This document shows positions 2,834 through 35,506 of a stretch of DNA of 39,322 nucleotides, one piece after another. Position 1 is the stretch's first letter; every line of letters starts with the position of its first letter. The stretch lies in NCBI GenBank assembly GCA_017542345.1, contig JAFXXI010000020.1, positions 1 to 39,322 on the forward strand. Direction: 5' to 3'. A program made the translations under genes and the position numbers. Source of the stretch: Bacteroidales bacterium (GTDB lineage: Bacteria > Bacteroidota > Bacteroidia > Bacteroidales > P3). The notes below the pieces were generated by a model, which did not search any database, was not told the DNA's origin, and saw nothing but the letters and a program-made list of their open reading frames with translations.

Positions 2834-5800
2834 TCAACACACTATTACCTCATGCTCCAGACCATCATCTACAAGGGTGATGGTTTGTTTGCTATATTCA
2901 GCCGCTTCCCCTGTATCATTGCGCCGGTAGCGGATAACATAAGTGGCTGTGCCGTATCGATAGCGGAGTGTGAATGACGGCCATTCGGTAGGCACCCGTG
3001 GGTCGATCGTAAGCTGTTCACCCTGTTTGCGAAAACCAAGAATGTTCTCAATACCGGTCTTATAGGCCCATGAAGCAGAACCCGTGTACCACGTCCATCC
3101 CCCACGTCCCGGATGCTGTGGATTGCTATATATATCGGCGGCGATACAATAGGGTTCCACTTTGTACTTGAGCACATCTGCAAGGGTCTGTGTGCGATGG
3201 ATGGGGTTGATGAGCGAATAGAGGAAATAGGCCATATCGTAACGGCCCTCCTTGAGTTGCGCCATGATGTACCACATGGCTCCATGCGTGTACTGGCCTC
3301 CATTCTCACGCACACCGACAGGGTAGTTCATAATGTATCCCGGCGAAGGTTGTGAATTCTGGAACGCCGGCGTGAGCAGCTGGATAATCTCGTGCTCACG
3401 GTTGACGAGGCGATTATCAGTCTCGCGCATGACACTCACCTTCTGTGCAGGCGTAGCCACGTCGGTAAGGATGCTCCAAGCCTGACTGATAAGGTCTATC
3501 TGGCATTCTGTATTGTTACGGCTTCCCATGGGGTCACCATTGTCGTAATAAGCACGGAGGAACCACGCCCCATCCCATGCGTTTTGCTGTATAGACTCAA
3601 CCAGTCTCTTCCGGAAAGCCGTCAGCTCTTCGCAATACGTCAAGTCGGCATCAGGCATCATTTGGGTGAGTTCTTCCATCTTCGGCAACAAGTCGGCCAG
3701 GAAGAAGGCCACCCATACACTTTCACCTTGTCCCTCAACACCAACGGTGGACATTCCATCGTTCCAGTCTCCACATCCCATCAACGGCAGACCGTGGACA
3801 CCCACACGCGACATTGAGCGATTCATCGAACGTCTCAAATGCTCATACAGCGTAGCATGCTCGTTGCCTGCCTCGTAACTTATTCCGCGTTCAGCCTCGC
3901 CCTGTCCCAGCTGGTCACCGACACAGAAAGGTACCTGTTCCGAGAGAATGGCGACATCGCCCGTGACATGGATGTACTGATAAGTCACAAAGACCAACCA
4001 CAGGTAGTCGTCGCTGAATGTAGTGCGTGCTCCGAGATGCATATTCTCATGCCACCAGTGCAGCACGTCACCTTCTGCGAACTGATGCGCAGCATGGTCA
4101 AGTATCTGTCGGCGCGCATAGGCAGGGTCACTGTAAAGCACCGACATCACATCCTGCAGCTGATCGCGGAAGCCTGTCGCGCCACCCACCTGGTAGAAGC
4201 CCGCACGGGCAAAGAGGCGCGAAGAATAGACCTGGTAGAGGTACCACCTATTGAGCATGTAGTTGAGCGAGCGATCAGGCGTCTCCACTTGTATCTGCGA
4301 GAGTTTCTCGTCCCAGTATTTGACCACCCGGTCGAATTCGGTATAGATAGCGGGGATTGTCGGACGGTCAAGATTGTCGGACACACTAATCACAAAGGCA
4401 ACCTCCTTCTCGCCGCCGGCAGGCAGGTCGACAACAAGGCCGAGTCGCTTGCGGTTGGGGTAATTTAGGCTGACATCGGTAAGTGGTTCCGTGGCTGTAA
4501 GCCGAACCACCTGGTCGTGATAAATGGGGTGATAGACATTGCGGACCAGCAAGGAGTTGCTCTGTTCGTTCCATTCGGAGAACAGATATCGGGCCGTTTG
4601 TTCCTCGCACATGCCGAGGACAAGCTTGTAGACCATGTCAAGCTGCACCTCAAGCGGTGCGGCTGTCTTGTTCTCAACCTTTATCTGGTAGTATTTCTCT
4701 GGTTTATCGCAAGCCACGAAGAGACGTACCGCCACCTTCATATCCTCATATTCGGCATCGAAGGCTGACCAACCCTGACCATGTCGGGCTGTGGCAGGCA
4801 CAAACTGTTTCTTGTTTATCAGCAGCATCTCGCTGGCATTGTCGCGCACGATATCGTTGCTCCAGCCGGTGAGTTTGAACTGCTGCGCATTATGGGCAAA
4901 AGTAAAGCCCGCCATGGTACTGCTGACGATACAGCCAAAGTGCTGTTCGTTTGCAATCACGTTGACCCACGGCATGGGGGTATTGGTGTTGGTCACAACA
5001 TAGTCGCGGCCACCCTGGTCGAACCCGCCGTACTGATTGTAGAACTCCAAATCACTCCACACGCGGAACTCTTTCTTGGGCTTCAGCACCGGATATTCTA
5101 TCTTATCCTGATAGTGCTGATTCACCTCTTCTAGCCGACGCAGCTGCTGGGCGATAGTGACTCCTTCGGCGGTAGTGAACGACAGACGTGCCACCGTGTG
5201 CAACAATATGCGCTCCGCCTCGCTGACATCCTTCCCGTCCAGCACATACACCTTTCCTGCATCAGAGTGCGACGCCCACAGGTGTTCGGTATTGGCCATA
5301 TTGCGGATGAAATGTACCACCCCTTCCCTGTCTCGTTCGGGGGCGTCGTTGATGAACACCAAGTCGAGCCGCAGGCCATGCACCTTGTAATACTCGAACG
5401 CACGCAACATCTCCTTGGCATAACCCGAACGCTCCATCGAATCCACCTCCATCAGCAGGATGGCCAAGTCGCCGCTGATGCCGAATCGCCACAGTCCACT
5501 CTGGGAAAGCGTATTCTTGGCCAACACGGCATTGCGGTCATTGCCGAGGGTGGCAGTTTGCGCCATATACTTGGCAATGTCGTTGTAGAGGCGCATCTGG
5601 CTGCCTTTGAGGAGCGACATGCTGGTGCGCATATTGTTGAACACCGAGGCGGTCTTGAAAGCATGTTCCACATCCACGGAACTCTGATACTGCTCCGTGA
5701 GTTGCAACAAATGCTCTTTGGCCTTGGAGAAACCTGTAAGGGCAAATGCCTCCACGCTCTTACCCGCAGCAATATGCAGTCGCCTGCGCATACTCATCAC

Positions 5801-8800
5801 CGGGTCCAGCGTGGTGCCCACCGTCCCCGTCAACGTGCGGTGGCTTTCGATGATATCGGCATGACGCAAACTGCCTCCACGACCCAAAAACTTGAGGCGC
5901 GAAGTCTCGTACTCGACAAGTCCCATCCAGTCAGACTTGTCAGACGAGTCCGACAACCACAACTTGTGCAACATATAATGGCGGGAGCCGCTACTGCCCG
6001 GACGGCTGAAGAGCAACGCCTCATGGTCGGCATCATACTCCGAGAGTATCTTCATGCCGTTGAACACGCGGTGGCTCTCATCCTCGGCAGCCGATGCCAA
6101 CACCACCTCACCATAGGTCGTCAGTTCCAAGTCAACAGCCTTCCCACTATTGTTGGTGAAGGTAAAGCGGCGTATTTCGGCACTGCGGTCCTTGAGCACA
6201 GTGACCTCTGTTTTGGTCTCCACCCCTTCATCAACACGCAGATAGCTTATCTTGTCGCTGGCGAAGCTGACATGGTAGCTCTCCGGCATCACATCCAGCG
6301 GGGAGTAAGTATTGCACCACAGCTTGTCAGAGCCCAAGTTACGGACATAGAGGTATATGCCGTAGTGGTCGGAAGTTATCTTGCGGTAACGGTTAAGCAT
6401 GATGTTGCGGAAGCGGGAGAATCCGCTGCCGCGGTCGTTCATCAACACCGTATATTGGCCATTGCTGATGACACCCAACTCCGGCACATTGGCGATAGTA
6501 TCGAAATCACGGGCATCACTCTCGGTCTGCACCTTGCTATAACGGTAGCGCTTATACTGCGTCACCTTGAGGTCGATATAAGGCTTCACCTGTGCTTTCT
6601 CCTTCAGCAGTGTCTCCATACTCTTCATGGCAGGTTCTTGCATGAAGTAGCGCTGCAGGCAGTGGTCTCCCAGATAGTTGGCCAGCGAAGCAAGTATCAT
6701 ACCCTGGTGGTGGGCATAGTGGGCCTTGACAGATACATGGTCCTCTTCGTCGTAACTCTCGTAGAAGCCATAGTCATCATACATCCCCAGCTCTTTGAAG
6801 CGACGTATGTTCTCATACACGGCACGGTCGTCCACGCCGATGGTCATCAACGAGCTATAGGGCGAAATAACAATGCGGTCGGGTGTGGTGTTCTGGAACT
6901 TGAGATACGGCACCCCAAAAGCATGGTACTTATAGTTCTGAGCGTCGTCGAGCTCGTTGTAGGCTGTCTCTGATATGCCCCAAGGCATGCCTTTGGCGGT
7001 GTTCTTTATGAAAGCTCGCTGTGCACGGATAGCGAAACTGTAGGTCTCGTCCATCAGCGTGTGCTTGTAGGTGGGCAGGAAAATGAGCGGCATGAAGTAC
7101 TCGAACAGCGTACCGTACCACGATGCCACGCCCTTGTAGCCCTTGTATTGCACCAACGTCTTGTCCAGACAGAACCAGTGCTTGTAAGGGGCATCGCCTT
7201 GAGCGATGGTGAGGAACGACGTCAGACGCGCCTCGCTGGCGAAGTTGTTGTAGTGGTAGGGCAGTAAGGTGTAGTTGCTTGTATCATAGCCGATGCTGAA
7301 CACATCCAACTCCGGATTATACAACTTCATGAAGTCGGTCTGGTCAATCAAGCGCTGCACCTTCTCCAACACTCCTTGTACTTCTTGAACTCCTTGAACT
7401 CCCATAAGAAAACCCTTGACCACATACAGGCAGGCCACAAAGTTACCCGAGTCGCAAGTGCTAATGAAGAAGTTGGGTAATGCCTTGAGAGTACTGATGC
7501 TGTACCAGTTGTAGAGGTGTCCGTTCCACTTCTCCAGGCGGCCGACAGTGTCAATGATATGTTCGATGCGGTCCACGGCCTCTTTCTGGGTGATGAAGTC
7601 GAGTTCGGCGGCACTGACCACAGCGGTGAGCGAGAATCCGATATTGGTGGGCGACGTCTTGTAGTCGGTCTTGCTCTCGCGGTTCAGCTGGTAGTTGTCC
7701 GGAATCAGCCAGTTGTTCTCCTCGGTAATCAAGGTGTCGAAGAAACTCCAGGTGTGCTGTGCCAGTCGTCGCACCTCGTCGGTTTCCTTGGCGTTGAGGC
7801 TGCGCTTGTCTTGCGGGAATTTCTTGCCCAACCAGTACATCAGCAATGGCGCGCCGCACCACGTCGCCGCGCAGAAGCCGATTCCTATCCAGCCTATCAA
7901 ACTCGCATGGCCCATTAGGCCCATCGCCACCAGCACAGCACTGGCCACATAGTTGAACCAGAATTTGCACATATAGTCGCCCAGCGTACCCTTGGTGCTC
8001 TTGGCGGCCTCGTCGCTGGTAATCCACGCCAGCAGGTCGCGGTGCGAGAACCACATGCGGTAGCAGGCACGAACGGCGGCATCGGTGTACATCCACGCCT
8101 CTTTCGGAAGCAGGGAGAACTGCACCAGCGAACGGTAGAAAATGACCTTGAAGCCGCGCATTAGAGTCATATAGTAGCGATAGCGCTTGCCGAAGCGCGG
8201 CATCGAGGTAATCTGGCCGATGATGAAGAACACAATGGGGCTGGCTACAGCCAGCAGTGCCACCACCACAAACCAAAAACCACTGATCACTGACCATTGT
8301 CCACTGACCACTGAAAGCCCATATCCCACAAATATCATCACCATCAGCGCCAGACTCAGCATCGAACGGCGCAGGTTATCAAATATCTTCCAGCGGCCGA
8401 TGGTGTTCACCTGGTTCTTCACCTTCTCGCCCTTTTCGTTGCGCACAGTGTCCTTCAGCCAACCGATAATCTGCCAGTCGCCGCGTGTCCAGCGGTGGTG
8501 GCGCTTGGCGTCGTCGATATAGTTGCTGGGATTGTCGTCGAAGAGTTCCAGGTCGTTGATGAGGCCGCAGCGGATGTGGCAGCCTTCGATAAGGTCGTGA
8601 CTCAGGATGAGGTTCTCCGGGAAGGTGCCCTTCAGAACCTGCTGGAACACGCGCAAGTCGTAGATACCCTTGCCACAGAACGAACCTTCGTTGAAGATGT
8701 CTTGATAGAGTTCGAAGCTGGCGGTAGTATAGACATCCAGTCCGCCCAATCCGGCAAAAAGTTGCGCGTAGCGGCTCTTATTGGTCACCTCCACGTCGAC

Positions 8801-31266: not shown

Positions 31267-32244
31267 ATGACCTTGGCGCAGCTCCAGGAGCTGTGCGCCG
31301 GACTCGGTTTCCCTCGCTTCACCGCCAAGCAGATATGCGACTGGCTCTACCGCAAGCGTGTGGACAGCATCGACGCTATGACCAATCTCTCCCTCGCCCA
31401 ACGTGCCCGCCTCAACGAGATAGCTTATATCGGCCGCGAGACGCCTGTGCGCTGCCAATGCTCGACCGACGGCACAAAGAAGTATCTCTTCGAACCTGGC
31501 ATCGAGGCGGTCTTTATCCCCGACGACGACCGTGCCACCCTCTGCGTCTCCTGCCAGCGAGGCTGCAAGATGGGATGCCGCTTCTGCGTCACCGGCCAGC
31601 AGGGCTTCCACGGCCACCTCTCCGCAGGCGACATCCTCAACCAATTGTTTTCTATCCCGGAATTCGACCAGCTGACCAACGTTGTCTTCATGGGCATGGG
31701 CGAGCCGATGGACAACCTCGACGCCGTGCTCGACGCCTGCTCTGTGCTCACCTCCGACTGGGGTCTTGGCTGGAGTCCCAAGCGCATCACCGTCAGCACC
31801 GTGGGCATTATCCCTGGTCTCAAACGCTTCCTCGACGAAAGCCAATGCCACCTCGCCGTCAGCCTGCACAACGCCGTGCCCCAGGAACGCTTGCTGATGA
31901 TGCCCGTGCAGAAGGCATTCCCCCTGAGTGAAGTGCTTGCACTGCTAAGAAAATACGACTGGAGCGGCCAGCGCCGCCTCTCGTTCGAATACACCATGTT
32001 CCGCGGCATCAACGACGACCTGGCGCATGCACAGAAACTAGTCGACACCCTGAATGGGCTCGACTGCCGCGTCAACCTTATCCGTTTCCACGAATCGCCC
32101 GAGGCTCCCTACAAGACCTCCATGCCCTCGACCATCCTGGCGTTCCAGAACTATCTGAACGGGCATGGCGTCATCTGCACCCTCCGCGCCTCACGCGGAC
32201 AGGACATCGACGCCGCTTGCGGCCTCCTCGCAGGCAAAAACTAA
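31267..32244 (+). CDS. rlmN: Dual-specificity rRNA/tRNA adenine-C2 methyltransferase RlmN
   Basis: The protein has 325 residues. It is a radical-SAM enzyme that methylates A2503 of 23S rRNA and A37 of some tRNAs. The radical-SAM cluster CxxxCxxC is Cys100, Cys104 and Cys107 (CKMGCRFC). The two other mechanistic cysteines are present: Cys93 in TLCVSCQRGC and Cys318 in SRGQDIDAACG. GMGEPMDN is the SAM-binding motif. The frame is open well upstream within the PBP gene, but the ATG at 31267 fits the family start. Its stop overlaps the convergent barrel gene by four bases. Confidence 0.95.
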   Translation: MTLAQLQELCAGLGFPRFTAKQICDWLYRKRVDSIDAMTNLSLAQRARLNEIAYIGRETPVRCQCSTDGTKKYLFEPGIEAVFIPDDDRATLCVSCQRGCKMGCRFCVTGQQGFHGHLSAGDILNQLFSIPEFDQLTNVVFMGMGEPMDNLDAVLDACSVLTSDWGLGWSPKRITVSTVGIIPGLKRFLDESQCHLAVSLHNAVPQERLLMMPVQKAFPLSEVLALLRKYDWSGQRRLSFEYTMFRGINDDLAHAQKLVDTLNGLDCRVNLIRFHESPEAPYKTSMPSTILAFQNYLNGHGVICTLRASRGQDIDAACGLLAGKN

Positions 32245-32819
32245 TCCTCGTCCATAAGGGCGCCGAGGTTGAAACTCAAGCCCCCATAGGCAGCGTGCGT
32301 GGTATAGACGCCATAAATGCTCACCCACTTGACAGGCGAGATGACCAATCCGCCGCCGAAATGCCAGTAGTGACGCGCCGGCCCTTGCTTGACATAGTCG
32401 TGGTACATCTGGCCGCTGTTCTCGTTCACCTCGACGTTGACGGTGGAGAAGTCGGTATAGCCGGAGGTGACGTGAGTGTGGCCAATGATAGGCATTATGC
32501 GTAGCCACGGCAGGACGGGAATCTGGTAGCCAAGGCTGATAGAGGTGGCCGTCGAATCAGGCACCATGGCGGCAATCCCCACGTTGACATGGTTGTCATA
32601 CTTGTACATGGGGCCGGCTGTAACAATGTCAAGATAGACACCCCAAGCGCTGAGATTCGCACCGAAACCGAAATCGTGGAACTGTGTACCTAGCCCGGCA
32701 ACGCCCAGGTTGATGCCAATCTCATATCGATGTACGTTGTTTCTGAAATCAAACCACTGTGCGTTGGCACTCATGGCAACAGCCATCATGGCTGCAAGAA
32801 TGAATACAGTCTTTTTCAT
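32241..32819 (-). CDS. Small outer-membrane beta-barrel-like protein of unknown function
   Basis: The 192-residue protein has a signal peptide (MKKTVFILAAMMAVAMSANA). The rest alternates hydrophobic and polar residues with many Gly and aromatics (YEIGINLGVAGLGTQFHDFGFGANLSAWGVYLDI to YGGLSFNLGAL), as expected for an 8-strand outer-membrane barrel or similar. I do not recognise a family. It starts 18 bases behind the dipeptidase stop, with no terminator between, so it is probably the last gene of the PqqD operon. Its 3' end overlaps rlmN by four bases. Confidence 0.65.
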   Translation of the reverse strand: MKKTVFILAAMMAVAMSANAQWFDFRNNVHRYEIGINLGVAGLGTQFHDFGFGANLSAWGVYLDIVTAGPMYKYDNHVNVGIAAMVPDSTATSISLGYQIPVLPWLRIMPIIGHTHVTSGYTDFSTVNVEVNENSGQMYHDYVKQGPARHYWHFGGGLVISPVKWVSIYGVYTTHAAYGGLSFNLGALMDED

Positions 32820-32837
32820 AGTGTTATAGTATTAAAA

Positions 32838-33593
32838 TTACAATTCACGGACAGGGAACTCGAAGTAGGTGTCGGGATAGGGTTCGTCCTTCAGGGTGAA
32901 ATGCCACCACTCGCAGTCGTAAGGCTTGAAGCCATGACGCAGCATGGCCTCACGGAGTAGCATACGGTGGGCGAACTGGTCGGCGGTGAGCGTATCATTG
33001 GGACGATAAATGCCCGTCTCGGGGTCGCCGCCGCAGTCGGGATGGCTCTCCTTGCCAAACCAGTCAAAGGTGCCGCCCATGTCCAACTCCTTCTCGGTGC
33101 ACATATCAAACAGGGTGAGGTCCACCGTCGATCCACGCGAATGGCCGCTACGCGTGGCGATATACTCCTTGATGAAAAGGCTGTCCTTCATCTCTTTGGG
33201 ATAGAAGTACTGCTTCATCAGCGTGTCATCGAGGTCTTTACCCCAGCGCACGAAATGGTCTACGCCCATCTGCGGCCGGTAGGCGTCATAGATTTTCAGA
33301 CGGTAGCCCTTCGCCTTGACGTCGTCACTCACAGCACGCAGGGCCTCGGCGGCTTCGCGGGTGAGCAGCGCCGTAGGCTGTTCGTAGCCGGCGATGCGAG
33401 CGCCCACGAAGTTGTAGGTGCCGAAGTAGCGCACCTCCAGTATCGCGTCGGGCACCACGTCGGTGATGTTCACGAATCCGGCGGACCCGTCGTCCGGTCC
33501 TTGCGTTTTCTTCTCGCTGCACGCCGTTAGGGTGCCCAGTGCCACGGTCGCCGTCAGCACCGCTGCCATCATAATCTTTTTCATTGCTATCAT
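32838..33593 (-). CDS. VanX/DdpX-type D-Ala-D-Ala dipeptidase, lipoprotein
   Basis: The protein has 251 residues from MIAMKKIMM. A lipobox, LGTLTAC, makes it a likely lipoprotein in the periplasm or on the outer membrane. The M15D zinc motifs are SGHSRGSTVDLTL (zinc His near 150, Asp near 157) and EWWHF (catalytic Glu and zinc His near 228-231). Arg in YDAYRPQMGV matches the family. The enzymes split D-Ala-D-Ala; a peptidoglycan-recycling or resistance role cannot be told apart by sequence. The ATG at 33593 overlaps the stop of the VanZ fusion gene (ATGA), which supports it; a start at 33584 (MKKIMM) is also possible. The frame extends far upstream, but only as the antisense of other frames. 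Confidence 0.9.
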   Translation of the reverse strand: MIAMKKIMMAAVLTATVALGTLTACSEKKTQGPDDGSAGFVNITDVVPDAILEVRYFGTYNFVGARIAGYEQPTALLTREAAEALRAVSDDVKAKGYRLKIYDAYRPQMGVDHFVRWGKDLDDTLMKQYFYPKEMKDSLFIKEYIATRSGHSRGSTVDLTLFDMCTEKELDMGGTFDWFGKESHPDCGGDPETGIYRPNDTLTADQFAHRMLLREAMLRHGFKPYDCEWWHFTLKDEPYPDTYFEFPVREL

Positions 33594-34384
33594 TGTTTTA
33601 TGTTTGTCCATTTCCCATGCTTTGCCCACAATATGGCCACCCAACCCAGGCTCACGCCCAGGAAGTTGGCCACCAAGTCGTTCACATCGAAGCCGCGATA
33701 AGGCAGCAGCCACTGCCCGCCTTCGGTCAGCAACCCCGCCGCCACCGCCGTAAGCCACACCGCCCATTTCCATCCGTGGGCGCCGCCACTCCCTTTCTTC
33801 CCGAACAGGTCCATCAGGAACAGCGTGCAGGGCAGGAATACCGAGGCGTGGAGCAGGTGGTCGGCTCGGAGGCCGAGGATGTAGTTGTCGAGCGGTATGC
33901 CTAATCCATTCAGCGGCGCCCACATCAGGAACGCCAGCCCCGCGAAGTACCACGGCCGCAACTGCTTCCGGCCCCTGCGCCCAAGCCAACGGGCCACCCA
34001 GTTCTTCCTCCGCTTCCGCCGCAGCGCGCGTCGGCTGGCACATTGCCAGGCCTTGCCGTCGGTCCCGCCGAGGCGTTCCACCTCGACCAGCACCGCCAGC
34101 ACATCCTCACGGCTCGCCGTCTCCTTGCTGTAGCAGTTGTCGCCCTGCAGGATGTAGCGGTCGCCGTCGACGGCCACCACGCGGTGCAGCAGGTGCTTCC
34201 CCTCACAGCGGAACAGCACCACGTCGCCCACATTCGGAGCCTCCGCCACAGGTGCCAGCGTCAGCGTGTCGCCTTCGCGCAGGGACGTCAGCATGCTGAT
34301 GCCCTTGAGCGTCAGCTTCACGCGGCGCCCTTCCCGCAGCTGCTCCTCGACGGCAGCGAAAAAAATGCTGTTCTCCGCAATCAT
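33590..34384 (-). CDS. Signal peptidase (S26, His-type)-VanZ fusion protein
   Basis: The 264-residue protein joins two domains. Residues 20-105 form an S24/S26 peptidase fold: GISML with Ser30, then GDVVLF, LHRVVAVDGD with His67, and QGDN with Asp82. His in place of the usual bacterial Lys matches the Sec11/SipW (eukaryotic and archaeal) signal-peptidase type. A basic linker follows (about 115-140, RRALRRKRRKNW). Residues 140-260 are VanZ-like, with four membrane segments (LNGLGIPLDNYI, ADHLLHASVFLP, FDVNDLVANFLGV). VanZ is linked to teicoplanin resistance, but its function is unclear. The start overlaps the kinase-like gene by four bases and the stop overlaps the dipeptidase start. Confidence 0.75.
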   Translation of the reverse strand: MIAENSIFFAAVEEQLREGRRVKLTLKGISMLTSLREGDTLTLAPVAEAPNVGDVVLFRCEGKHLLHRVVAVDGDRYILQGDNCYSKETASREDVLAVLVEVERLGGTDGKAWQCASRRALRRKRRKNWVARWLGRRGRKQLRPWYFAGLAFLMWAPLNGLGIPLDNYILGLRADHLLHASVFLPCTLFLMDLFGKKGSGGAHGWKWAVWLTAVAAGLLTEGGQWLLPYRGFDVNDLVANFLGVSLGWVAILWAKHGKWTNIKQ

Positions 34385-35241
34385 CTTTCAGCGTTGTATA
34401 TGGTGTCGTGACTCATGCGCGCCGCCGCCGCGTCGGGCAGGCAACCCATGCGGTAGACAGGCACACGCTCCAGCACGTTCGAGACGTATGCCACCAGCTT
34501 GTCCAGGCAGCGCTCCTCACGCGCCAGACAAGGTGGACATGAAGGCTGCACAGCGGTGAACGCCTCGACCACGCCCAGCCGCCGGATGCTGTTCTCCGGA
34601 CGCTGCTCCAGGCGCAGCAGGGCCGCCACCGGACGGCATTCTGTATGGTAGCAGGGCGTCTTGCCGCTCCACGGCGAGCCGTACACCACTGCCCCACCCT
34701 CTTCGACCGCTAGCAGCGGACTGTCGTCGTTGAGCAAGCAGGTATTCTCTATATTTTCCAGCCACAAGCGTGTGTGGGTGCTCTTGCCTGTGCCGCTCTC
34801 GCCGAGGCACATCACGGCCCGACCGTCGCACACCACCGTCGACGAATGCACCGGTAGCACTCCGCGCCACAGCCCCAGCATCGACCATGCCGTCCAAAGC
34901 GTGAAACGCAGCACCGACGCATCAACTATGTGACTGCACCGCACCTCGTCGGGCTTCCGTCCGTCGAAGCGCAGCCATCCAAAACCTTCATATTGATACC
35001 AGTATACGCCCTCGGCGTCGACACCGAAACGACAGACAGAGCCGCCGTCGGCAATATCGAAGCTGTGCAGCGTGCGGCACTCGGGCATCGTCAGGTCGGC
35101 GTCGAGCGTCAGCGTAGCATTAGAATGTCCGCCGCGCACGGCGAACACCTCCATGCCCGGCAGCGACAAGGCCATACGCACCCCTTCGGCGCCGGTCAGA
35201 CGCACCTCCATACCGCCTATACCAAGCAATGCCTCAGCCAT
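34381..35241 (-). CDS. HPr kinase-like protein (HprK-related)
   Basis: The 286-residue protein has an HPr-kinase C-terminal-like fold. The P-loop is GESGTGKS (residues 147-154), preceded by VLPVHSSTVV with a conserved-looking His132. LLNDD (169-173) and GSPWSGKTPCY (188-198) match the HprK lobe. The N-terminal 110 residues are beta-rich and not the HprK regulatory domain. The HprK family uses ATP to phosphorylate Ser/Thr residues; HprK-related proteins also occur next to PqqD-like genes and lasso peptide genes. The substrate is unknown. It overlaps the PqqD gene by eight bases and the next gene by four. Confidence 0.75.
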   Translation of the reverse strand: MAEALLGIGGMEVRLTGAEGVRMALSLPGMEVFAVRGGHSNATLTLDADLTMPECRTLHSFDIADGGSVCRFGVDAEGVYWYQYEGFGWLRFDGRKPDEVRCSHIVDASVLRFTLWTAWSMLGLWRGVLPVHSSTVVCDGRAVMCLGESGTGKSTHTRLWLENIENTCLLNDDSPLLAVEEGGAVVYGSPWSGKTPCYHTECRPVAALLRLEQRPENSIRRLGVVEAFTAVQPSCPPCLAREERCLDKLVAYVSNVLERVPVYRMGCLPDAAAARMSHDTIYNAER

Positions 35242-35506
35242 TTACAATCAGTCCTTCCTTCGTCATGCTCTTCACCCACTCGGTAGCGTCGTGCATCGCC
35301 GTGTCGGCATCCACATCATACCGCTCCGTCAGCTTCGCAGCCACATCGTCCACACTGAACTCACGCTCCCTCAACTCATTGTACAGCCAAAGGGCGGTCT
35401 CGTTGAGCGCTACCACCTTGGTCATGTCGGCCAGCGTGCCATCCTGCATGATGACAATGTGCTCGCCCGCCACATCGCGGATTTTTTTTCTTCTGTCTAT
35501 TCTCAT
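35234..35506 (-). CDS. PqqD-family (RiPP recognition element-like) protein
   Basis: The 90-residue protein starts MRIDRRKKIRDVAGEHIVIM. It shows the PqqD-like winged-helix pattern: two beta strands, a NETALWLYNELREREFSVDDVAAKLTERY helix pair, and EWVKSMTKEGLIV at the end. Such domains bind leader peptides in ribosomally made, modified peptides, and also serve as chaperones in the HPr-kinase-related systems. The frame is open four codons upstream; MRIDRRKK is the more usual start. It is the first gene of the operon. A weak -7-like TATATTGA lies at 35515-35522 on the minus strand. Confidence 0.75.
   Translation of the reverse strand: MRIDRRKKIRDVAGEHIVIMQDGTLADMTKVVALNETALWLYNELREREFSVDDVAAKLTERYDVDADTAMHDATEWVKSMTKEGLIVNG

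Follow-up and report, generated by a model that had tools for sequence, protein, structure and literature searches.

A conserved PqqD, HprK-like kinase and signal-peptidase cassette of Bacteroidales, probably related to the linear polyphosphorylated peptide systems

The stretch of DNA analysed here (the window: 39,322 nucleotides, positions 1 to 39,322 of contig JAFXXI010000020.1 in the Bacteroidales bacterium assembly GCA_017542345.1) carries five minus-strand open reading frames (ORFs) at 32241..35506, the first three of which encode a PqqD-family protein, an HprK-like kinase and a signal-peptidase-like protein fused to a VanZ domain. We consider this three-gene cassette to be probably (at a probability of roughly 0.72) a Bacteroidota system for ribosomally synthesised and post-translationally modified peptides (RiPPs) of the linear polyphosphorylated peptide (LPP) kind, a likeness drawn from gene set, residues and spacing rather than from a tree of RiPP recognition elements (RREs). 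LPPs were described from Paenibacillus alginolyticus (genes lppA-K-B-S-D-N; Nat Commun May 2026, PMC13381572), and the main text of that paper states them to be restricted to Bacillota and their biological role to be unknown; most, not all, of the matches in its peptidase network are from Bacillota, and no word starting with "bacteroid" occurs in that main text.

The window's assembly is a partial genome (1,257,704 bases, 69.67% complete), and all five ORFs were confirmed in the window as follows:

35234..35506, minus strand: PqqD-family RRE, LppB/B1-like (PF05402, E 2.6e-13)
34381..35241, minus strand: HprK-like Ser kinase, LppK-like, by motifs and weak NCBIfam matches; 8-nt overlap with the PqqD gene
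33590..34384, minus strand: putative Ser-His signal-peptidase-like leader peptidase fused to VanZ (Pfam: Peptidase_S24/S26 E 8e-6 and 6e-5, VanZ E 1.4e-8); 4-nt overlap with the kinase gene
32838..33593, minus strand: VanX-like D-Ala-D-Ala dipeptidase lipoprotein (Peptidase_M15 E 1.4e-35, PDB 1r44 E 7e-39); 4-nt overlap with the fusion gene
32241..32819, minus strand: small exported beta-barrel-like protein (OMP_b-brl E 0.0076, below cut-off); 18-nt gap after the VanX-like gene

A preliminary description of this DNA had proposed five genes with these tight junctions, a partnership of PqqD and HprK-like proteins and a His-type peptidase, all of which held; for the VanX-like gene a second ATG nine bases further in is an equally plausible start. 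The HprK-like protein matched no Pfam or NCBIfam family above cut-off and belongs neither to HPr-rel-A (HprK_rel_A, TIGR04352; E 0.053, 12.6 bits against a cut-off of 200) nor to SynChlorMet ScmC (TIGR04249; E 1.9e-4, 20.9 bits against a cut-off of 125), both of which are HprK-like too.

A kinase search of 61 genomes (the window's own and 60 relatives) gave a match in 37, two of them weak, and these loci together with 80 from named genomes, with 4 duplicates dropped, made up a set of 114 non-duplicate loci, several of them cut by contig ends (loci, genomes and contigs are given below as L, G and C numbers). The best named matches were Bacteroidales metagenome-assembled genomes (MAGs), several of them from sheep or goat rumen or reticulum. 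The peptidase gene was on the same strand as the kinase gene in 110 of the 114 loci and the PqqD gene in 73, and the linkage of these three genes, which alone are the conserved unit, is beyond chance. Among these loci, the order of all five genes was found in the window's genome only. The scattering among related genomes that the preliminary description had named as telling against its five-gene operon was thus seen for the VanX-like and barrel genes and not for the first three, so that its linkage of PqqD, kinase and peptidase stands, while the five-gene operon as a conserved unit was rejected.

Of 37 genomes of the window's genus, VanX homologues are present in 33 (30 by strong matches, and G006, G017 and G032 by partial matches alone, E 1e-7 to 1e-10), but among the 114 cassette stretches they were found only in the window, in L060 (opposite strand, 2.4 kb away) and in L031 (2.1-2.4 kb upstream), with an additional weak match of 92 residues in L062. 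The barrel gene is present in 14 of the 37 genus genomes, and in cassette stretches only in the window and in L041 (opposite strand, 1.3 kb away). A convergent rlmN gene falls within the stretch for 18 of the 51 loci with the fusion gene, and in 12 of these 18 it overlaps the fusion gene by 65-92 nt with nothing between; of the others, one is 5 nt away, four are 388-1242 nt away and separated from it by other or antisense ORFs, and the one in the window is 1345 nt away, the VanX-like and barrel genes lying in that gap. The simplest reading of this spacing is that these two genes are a local insertion beside the cassette. A coherent five-gene envelope operon, in which the protease and VanX would act on peptidoglycan or a surface protein while PqqD and HprK regulate, could draw on the tight junctions in the window's genome, on the good M15 match and on a VanX homologue at most 2.5 kb from the cassette in L060 and L031; it is largely refuted by the scattering of its genes, as in most genus genomes VanX and barrel are on contigs other than that of the cassette, their orientation is inconsistent where they are near it, and in 12 of the 18 loci rlmN directly overlaps the fusion gene, and of the alternatives considered here we give it the lowest credence. 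Nothing was found in favour of peptidoglycan as the target, for which no dedicated test was made, and no VanH or VanA family was found by Pfam among the nine window proteins scanned, so that of a glycopeptide-resistance (van) operon with its vanH-vanA-vanX set these show just the VanX-like lipoprotein and the VanZ domain. The VanX-like protein has the M15 family in common with VanX (PDB 1r44), but it is a lipoprotein by its signal sequence, scores 183.8 bits against the VanX cut-off of 320 and stands outside the conserved core of the cassette. Off the cassette contig, VanX-like and barrel genes were seen 63 nt (G025:C125) and about 870 nt (G033:C50) apart, and this pair may be a unit of its own.

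The residues of the three core proteins are well preserved. In the kinase, H132, the GESGTGKST motif at 147-155 and DD 172-173 are invariant in alignments of 10 and 27 sequences (with His132, the Walker A Lys153 and the Asp pair 172-173 in 27 of 27), and by analogy with HprK/P we take these to be the catalytic residues. In the peptidase, Ser30 is invariant in 113 of 113 sequences and His67 in 112 of 112 with letters at that position, the same Ser-His pair and S26-like domain as in the SipW/archaeal-type signal peptidase I; the protein differs from these in that no membrane segment was found before the catalytic domain. The fusion protein is laid out as the peptidase at about residues 1-100, a strongly basic linker ahead of the first membrane span as placed by eye (16 Lys and Arg against 3 Asp and Glu at 97-150) and a VanZ Pfam match at 181-253; at the threshold used, no 19-mer ahead of residue 176 was hydrophobic. 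Membrane proteins follow the positive-inside rule, and so the basic linker suggests that the catalytic domain faces the cytoplasm. PqqD residues Asn35 and Asp73 are invariant in 77 of 77 homologues and, as placed by motif and spacing and not by structure, would correspond to N33 and D70 of LppB, which in the LppB crystal structure hold the Tyr and Pro of the YxxP leader motif (PMC13381572).

Of the 114 loci, 51 have a VanZ domain; they come from the window's genus and from MAGs with no narrower title than Bacteroidales or Bacteroidetes, and all 54 VanZ matches sit in the peptidase ORF. Of the 63 loci that lack VanZ, 49 have an ATP-binding cassette (ABC) exporter (cluster c2) no more than seven genes from the kinase, compared to only 1 of the 51 with VanZ (L123, where the ABC gene is on the opposite strand), although the VanZ loci may form a single clade, so that this exclusion is not a count of independent events. 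A nucleoside triphosphate (NTP) transferase (cluster c14) was found in 12 of the 114. Elsewhere in the genus, an ABC protein of about 550 residues recurs in many genomes, and the 12 copies tested scored 193-258 bits with the cassette-ABC profile, less than the 320 and 335 bits of two further ABC proteins from the window's own genome; its neighbour in L288 and L295 is, as judged by eye, a recF-like gene. NTP-transferase homologues are present in 29 of the 37 genus genomes, and the one neighbourhood read closely (L305) resembles a polysaccharide locus. Natural fusions of the peptidase with an ABC transporter (L066, L282) or with the kinase (L065, L165) were also seen, which suggests that these parts work together. 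Solo HprK-like genes, with no peptidase or PqqD detected in the fetched stretch, occur in L059, L064 and L129.

The preliminary description had left a peptide as one possible target and suggested a search for small co-conserved ORFs near the cassette, and such a scan gave one peptide family in 13 loci, which supports a peptide target. Its members share the leader Y-x-[AST]-P-x-[ILV]...V-E-x-G-F-A-x-S, followed by a variable tail. Two profiles were made, A2 from 13 leaders and A3 from 67; these 67 come from a set of 68 leaders that remained after removal of those with masked letters and those more than 80% alike, one leader of 27 residues (L062) being left out of A3 and of the codon count. The peptide gene precedes the kinase gene by 39, 22 and 13 nt in L062, L183 and L191 of other Bacteroidales, is followed by PqqD in L178, and in L144 (Bacteroides sp. 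519) and L160 (Dysgonomonas sp. ZJ279) heads a set on one strand of peptide, lipoprotein, PqqD, NTP transferase, ABC, HprK and peptidase. At E<1 the real loci gave 53 matches and a Markov-resampled control none. Mean pairwise identity at codon positions 1, 2 and 3 was 0.57, 0.67 and 0.33 (67 leaders), the third position alone being low, which suggests that the leader is under selection as protein. The Tyr-to-Ser distance is 19 residues in 67 of the 68 leaders, and the tails after the conserved Ser (8-67 residues) are rich in Gly, Asp, Glu, Ser and Asn, with only 0.8% Lys, 1.5% Arg and 0.1% Cys. No family was found above cut-off for seven of these peptides scanned with Pfam or three with NCBIfam.

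A precursor within the window was sought and rejected, as profile A3 found nothing there better than E 0.49, and the earlier remark that the operon holds no precursor was correct. Copies were found at E 1e-4 in 34 of the 37 genus genomes, with up to 21 in one (G021), most of them unlinked to the cassette by contig or position. The window's own genome has a single copy (G000:C26:64729-64944, E 4e-8), also unlinked to the cassette and 22 nt upstream of a gene for a 1088-residue protein with fn3 domains and a Por_Secre_tail, the sorting tail of the type IX secretion system (T9SS). In one locus off the cassette (L300, G021:C49:1-14000), a peptide (4433-4567) and an NTP-transferase homologue (5749-6840) are on opposite strands with about 1.2 kb between them. 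A second class of YxxP peptides, with E-G-V-I-A-x-S and the tail D-L-E-D-x-I-N-D-I-L, stands directly before lipoprotein genes in L246 and L249 (B. oleiciplenus genome), possibly pointing to a wider peptide superfamily.

Taken together with the LPP system, the scheme that we infer, in its every biochemical step, topology, export and product function, is as follows. Small precursors, whose genes lie at other places in the genome, would be bound by PqqD, as the RRE, through the Y-x-x-P-x-[ILV] section of their leader; their near-invariant Ser, as the third core residue (A1-x2-S3), would be phosphorylated by the HprK-like kinase; and VanZ would keep the Ser-His peptidase domain at the membrane's inner face, where that domain would remove the leader between G-F and A-x-S. 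In related cassettes an ABC transporter fills the membrane or export role that VanZ would have here. The resulting peptides would be acidic and poor in Lys, Arg and Cys, made alongside the large exported proteins of the next gene. Signal peptidases cleave after A-x-A/S, and our first idea was that the conserved A-x-S is the cut site itself, with cleavage after the Ser and the kinase acting on a Ser or Thr further down the tail. Positions -3 and -1 would then be filled by small residues (Ala in 40 of 67, Ser or Thr in 67 of 67), and 64 of 67 tails still have a Ser or Thr, which would allow this, but the Ala position is another residue in 27 of 67, mostly Gln and Glu, and the idea was demoted to an alternative, now unlikely, given LppA (the one LPP precursor studied), which is cut before A-Q-S and carries its phosphates on Ser3, the target of its kinase (PMC13381572). 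The lasso peptide precursor BsfA also argues against it, with YxxPxL at -17 to -12 and a phosphorylated Ser3 (PMC10368454, PMC7533575); with Ser as core position 3, the Bacteroidales leaders would have their Tyr at -17 and [ILV] at -12, the same spacing. A-Q-S itself is at the predicted core start in 6 of the 68 Bacteroidales leaders.

The resemblance to LPP under our preferred reading thus includes a discrete RRE, an HprK-like kinase and an archaeal/SipW-type signal peptidase in both; a precursor in both with a YxxPx[V] leader, a conserved Ser, an A-x-S core start and a variable C-terminus; and, in many other Bacteroidales loci, an MsbA-like exporter and an NTP transferase. For the LPP proteins, the RRE, kinase and SpI-like peptidase were each shown to be active, changes to the Tyr and Pro of LppA lowered RRE binding, and LppS cleaved in vitro only with LppB (PMC13381572). 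The terms signal peptidase, S26 and S24 are absent from the main text of a review of leader proteases (PMC10885120).

Co-occurrence of peptide and kinase was assessed in 197 genomes of the order (completeness of at least 80% requested, with the window's own genome included at 69.67%), using a peptide limit of E 1e-4 and counting as strong a kinase match of E 1e-50 or better, a limit chosen after seeing the list. A strong kinase match was found in 11 of these genomes and the peptide in 7; excluding the window's own genome, the peptide was in 4 of 10 genomes with a strong kinase match and 2 of 186 others (p 5e-5), and in 2 of 8 compared to 2 of 186 (p 0.009) when the two genomes that had contributed to the profile were excluded as well. 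Within the genus, 32 of 33 kinase-positive genomes had the peptide, compared to 2 of 4 kinase-negative ones (p 0.026).

Most peptide genes stand just before a large gene. Of 88 non-redundant peptide genes in the fetched loci, 87 could be assessed (one was cut by the locus end), and the next same-strand gene within 300 nt encoded a lipoprotein by a strict pattern in 57 of the 87, compared to 38 of 948 ordinary genes of comparable loci (4%; p 8e-46, a value that overstates the independent evidence since many of the 87 are paralogues). Of the other 9 with a next gene, 5 were lipoprotein-like by eye, 3 were HprK and 1 was neither; 21 of the 87 had no qualifying next gene called, L251, L254 and L271 among them since the gene picker preferred an antisense or overlong ORF. 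Downstream Pfam families were Mfa_like_1 (PF13149) in L189, the basis for the label fimbrillin-like, which elsewhere was given by eye, DUF285/leucine-rich repeat (LRR) in L201, L255 and L267, and fn3 with Por_Secre_tail in L271, with a Fib_succ_major match in L261 below cut-off; 15 of the 20 downstream proteins scanned had no Pfam family above cut-off, and three tries gave no PDB sequence match. L251 (G021:C58:90000-106000) holds four consecutive peptide genes at a spacing of about 1.9 kb, with a large lipoprotein ORF 12-67 nt after three of them and an antisense ORF picked at the fourth.

This placement could also mean that the small ORFs act as attenuators, regulatory leader peptides for the genes that follow, and are unrelated to the cassette, as in most cases a large gene comes directly after them and most show no linkage to the cassette. 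We hold that to be very improbable, because the amino acids are conserved with free third codon positions, three genomes have the ORF next to HprK and two have it next to the whole cassette, their YxxP and Ala-x-Ser motifs match the enzymes, and they co-occur with the kinase. With the peptides taken as precursors, a further proposal, possible if rather doubtful, is that one membrane-anchored complex of RRE, kinase and peptidase might mature phosphopeptides dispersed through the genome, each with a neighbouring fimbrillin-, LRR- or T9SS-type surface protein, with VanZ replacing the ABC exporter as membrane partner and the peptides serving as cell-surface cofactors, ligands or signals and not as stand-alone antibiotics.

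The phosphorylated lasso peptides (Bsf, paeninodin) share with the cassette a PqqD-like B1, an HprK-like kinase and the Tyr -17/aliphatic -12 spacing, but here there is a signal-peptidase-type protease and no B2 or macrolactam cyclase, neither of which Pfam found in the nine window proteins that the scan covered. The cassette might then be a remnant lasso tailoring set that now modifies something other than these peptides. All three enzyme types do have lasso or LPP relatives, and L067 holds a lasso B2 and a cyclase-like protein beside distant HprK and PqqD; we nevertheless see very little chance of this, as the catalytic and binding residues are preserved and not decaying, the peptide family follows the cassette, and no cyclase or B2 was noticed among the neighbours that were read (no profile search was made in the genus). 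The set in L067 (G043:C15) is of lasso type and comprises an HprK-like protein, a sulfotransferase-like protein (by eye), PqqD, lasso B2 (E 1.9e-17) and a cyclase-like protein below cut-off.

Several observations weigh against the relationship to LPP or against the pairing of peptide and cassette. The peptide profile was built from peptides of cassette-bearing genomes, and when any kinase match at E 1e-3 was counted, with own and profile genomes excluded, the peptide was in 3 of 57 compared to 1 of 137 genomes, which was not significant (p 0.077). No peptide was found at E 1e-4 in 6 of the 10 strong-kinase genomes of the order other than the window's own: five of these (G607, G512, G491, G541, G604) have kinase, peptidase, PqqD and NTP transferase together, four of the five loci with an ABC exporter homologue as well (the G607 locus ends at a contig end), suggesting that the substrate may differ there, and the sixth (G520) has kinase and peptidase only. 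Of the two genomes with a peptide and no strong kinase match, G474 has a divergent kinase beside a peptidase-ABC fusion and G592 has no kinase match; within the genus, G006 and G034 have peptides and no kinase match, but are 72% and 68% complete, and in G029 the cassette is present and the peptide is not. The window's cassette has neither the exporter nor the NTP transferase seen in LPP clusters, and no exporter ortholog was found in the genus, where matches to one cassette ABC protein were 23-39% identical (the remaining ABC matches were left unexamined). Where LppS has its catalytic Asp, only 63 of 115 aligned rows have one, the window's among them, and the HQxIxFET section of the LPP leader is missing, the Bacteroidales consensus there being xxEVxExxVExGF. 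In BsfA, replacement of Tyr, Pro and Leu of YxxPxL by Ala reportedly did not stop phosphorylation and only the triple change lowered leader removal (PMC10368454, PMC7533575), so YxxP may be dispensable.

In its RRE, kinase, SpI-like peptidase and plan of the precursor the system would match LPP and be of an already known kind. What appears to be new relative to LPP is the phylum (the host here being of the Bacteroidales and not Bacillota), the fusion of the peptidase to VanZ, a cassette that in the window's lineage has no exporter or NTP transferase beside it, and precursors that are dispersed through the genome and paired with lipoprotein genes. If true, this would extend signal-peptidase-type RiPP processing beyond Bacillota, would give the VanZ domain a function to test and would explain small ORFs that match no family. 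A relative of the LPPs in gut and rumen Bacteroidales, with up to 21 precursors per genome, would offer a testable role for such peptides and many natural variants with which to study them.

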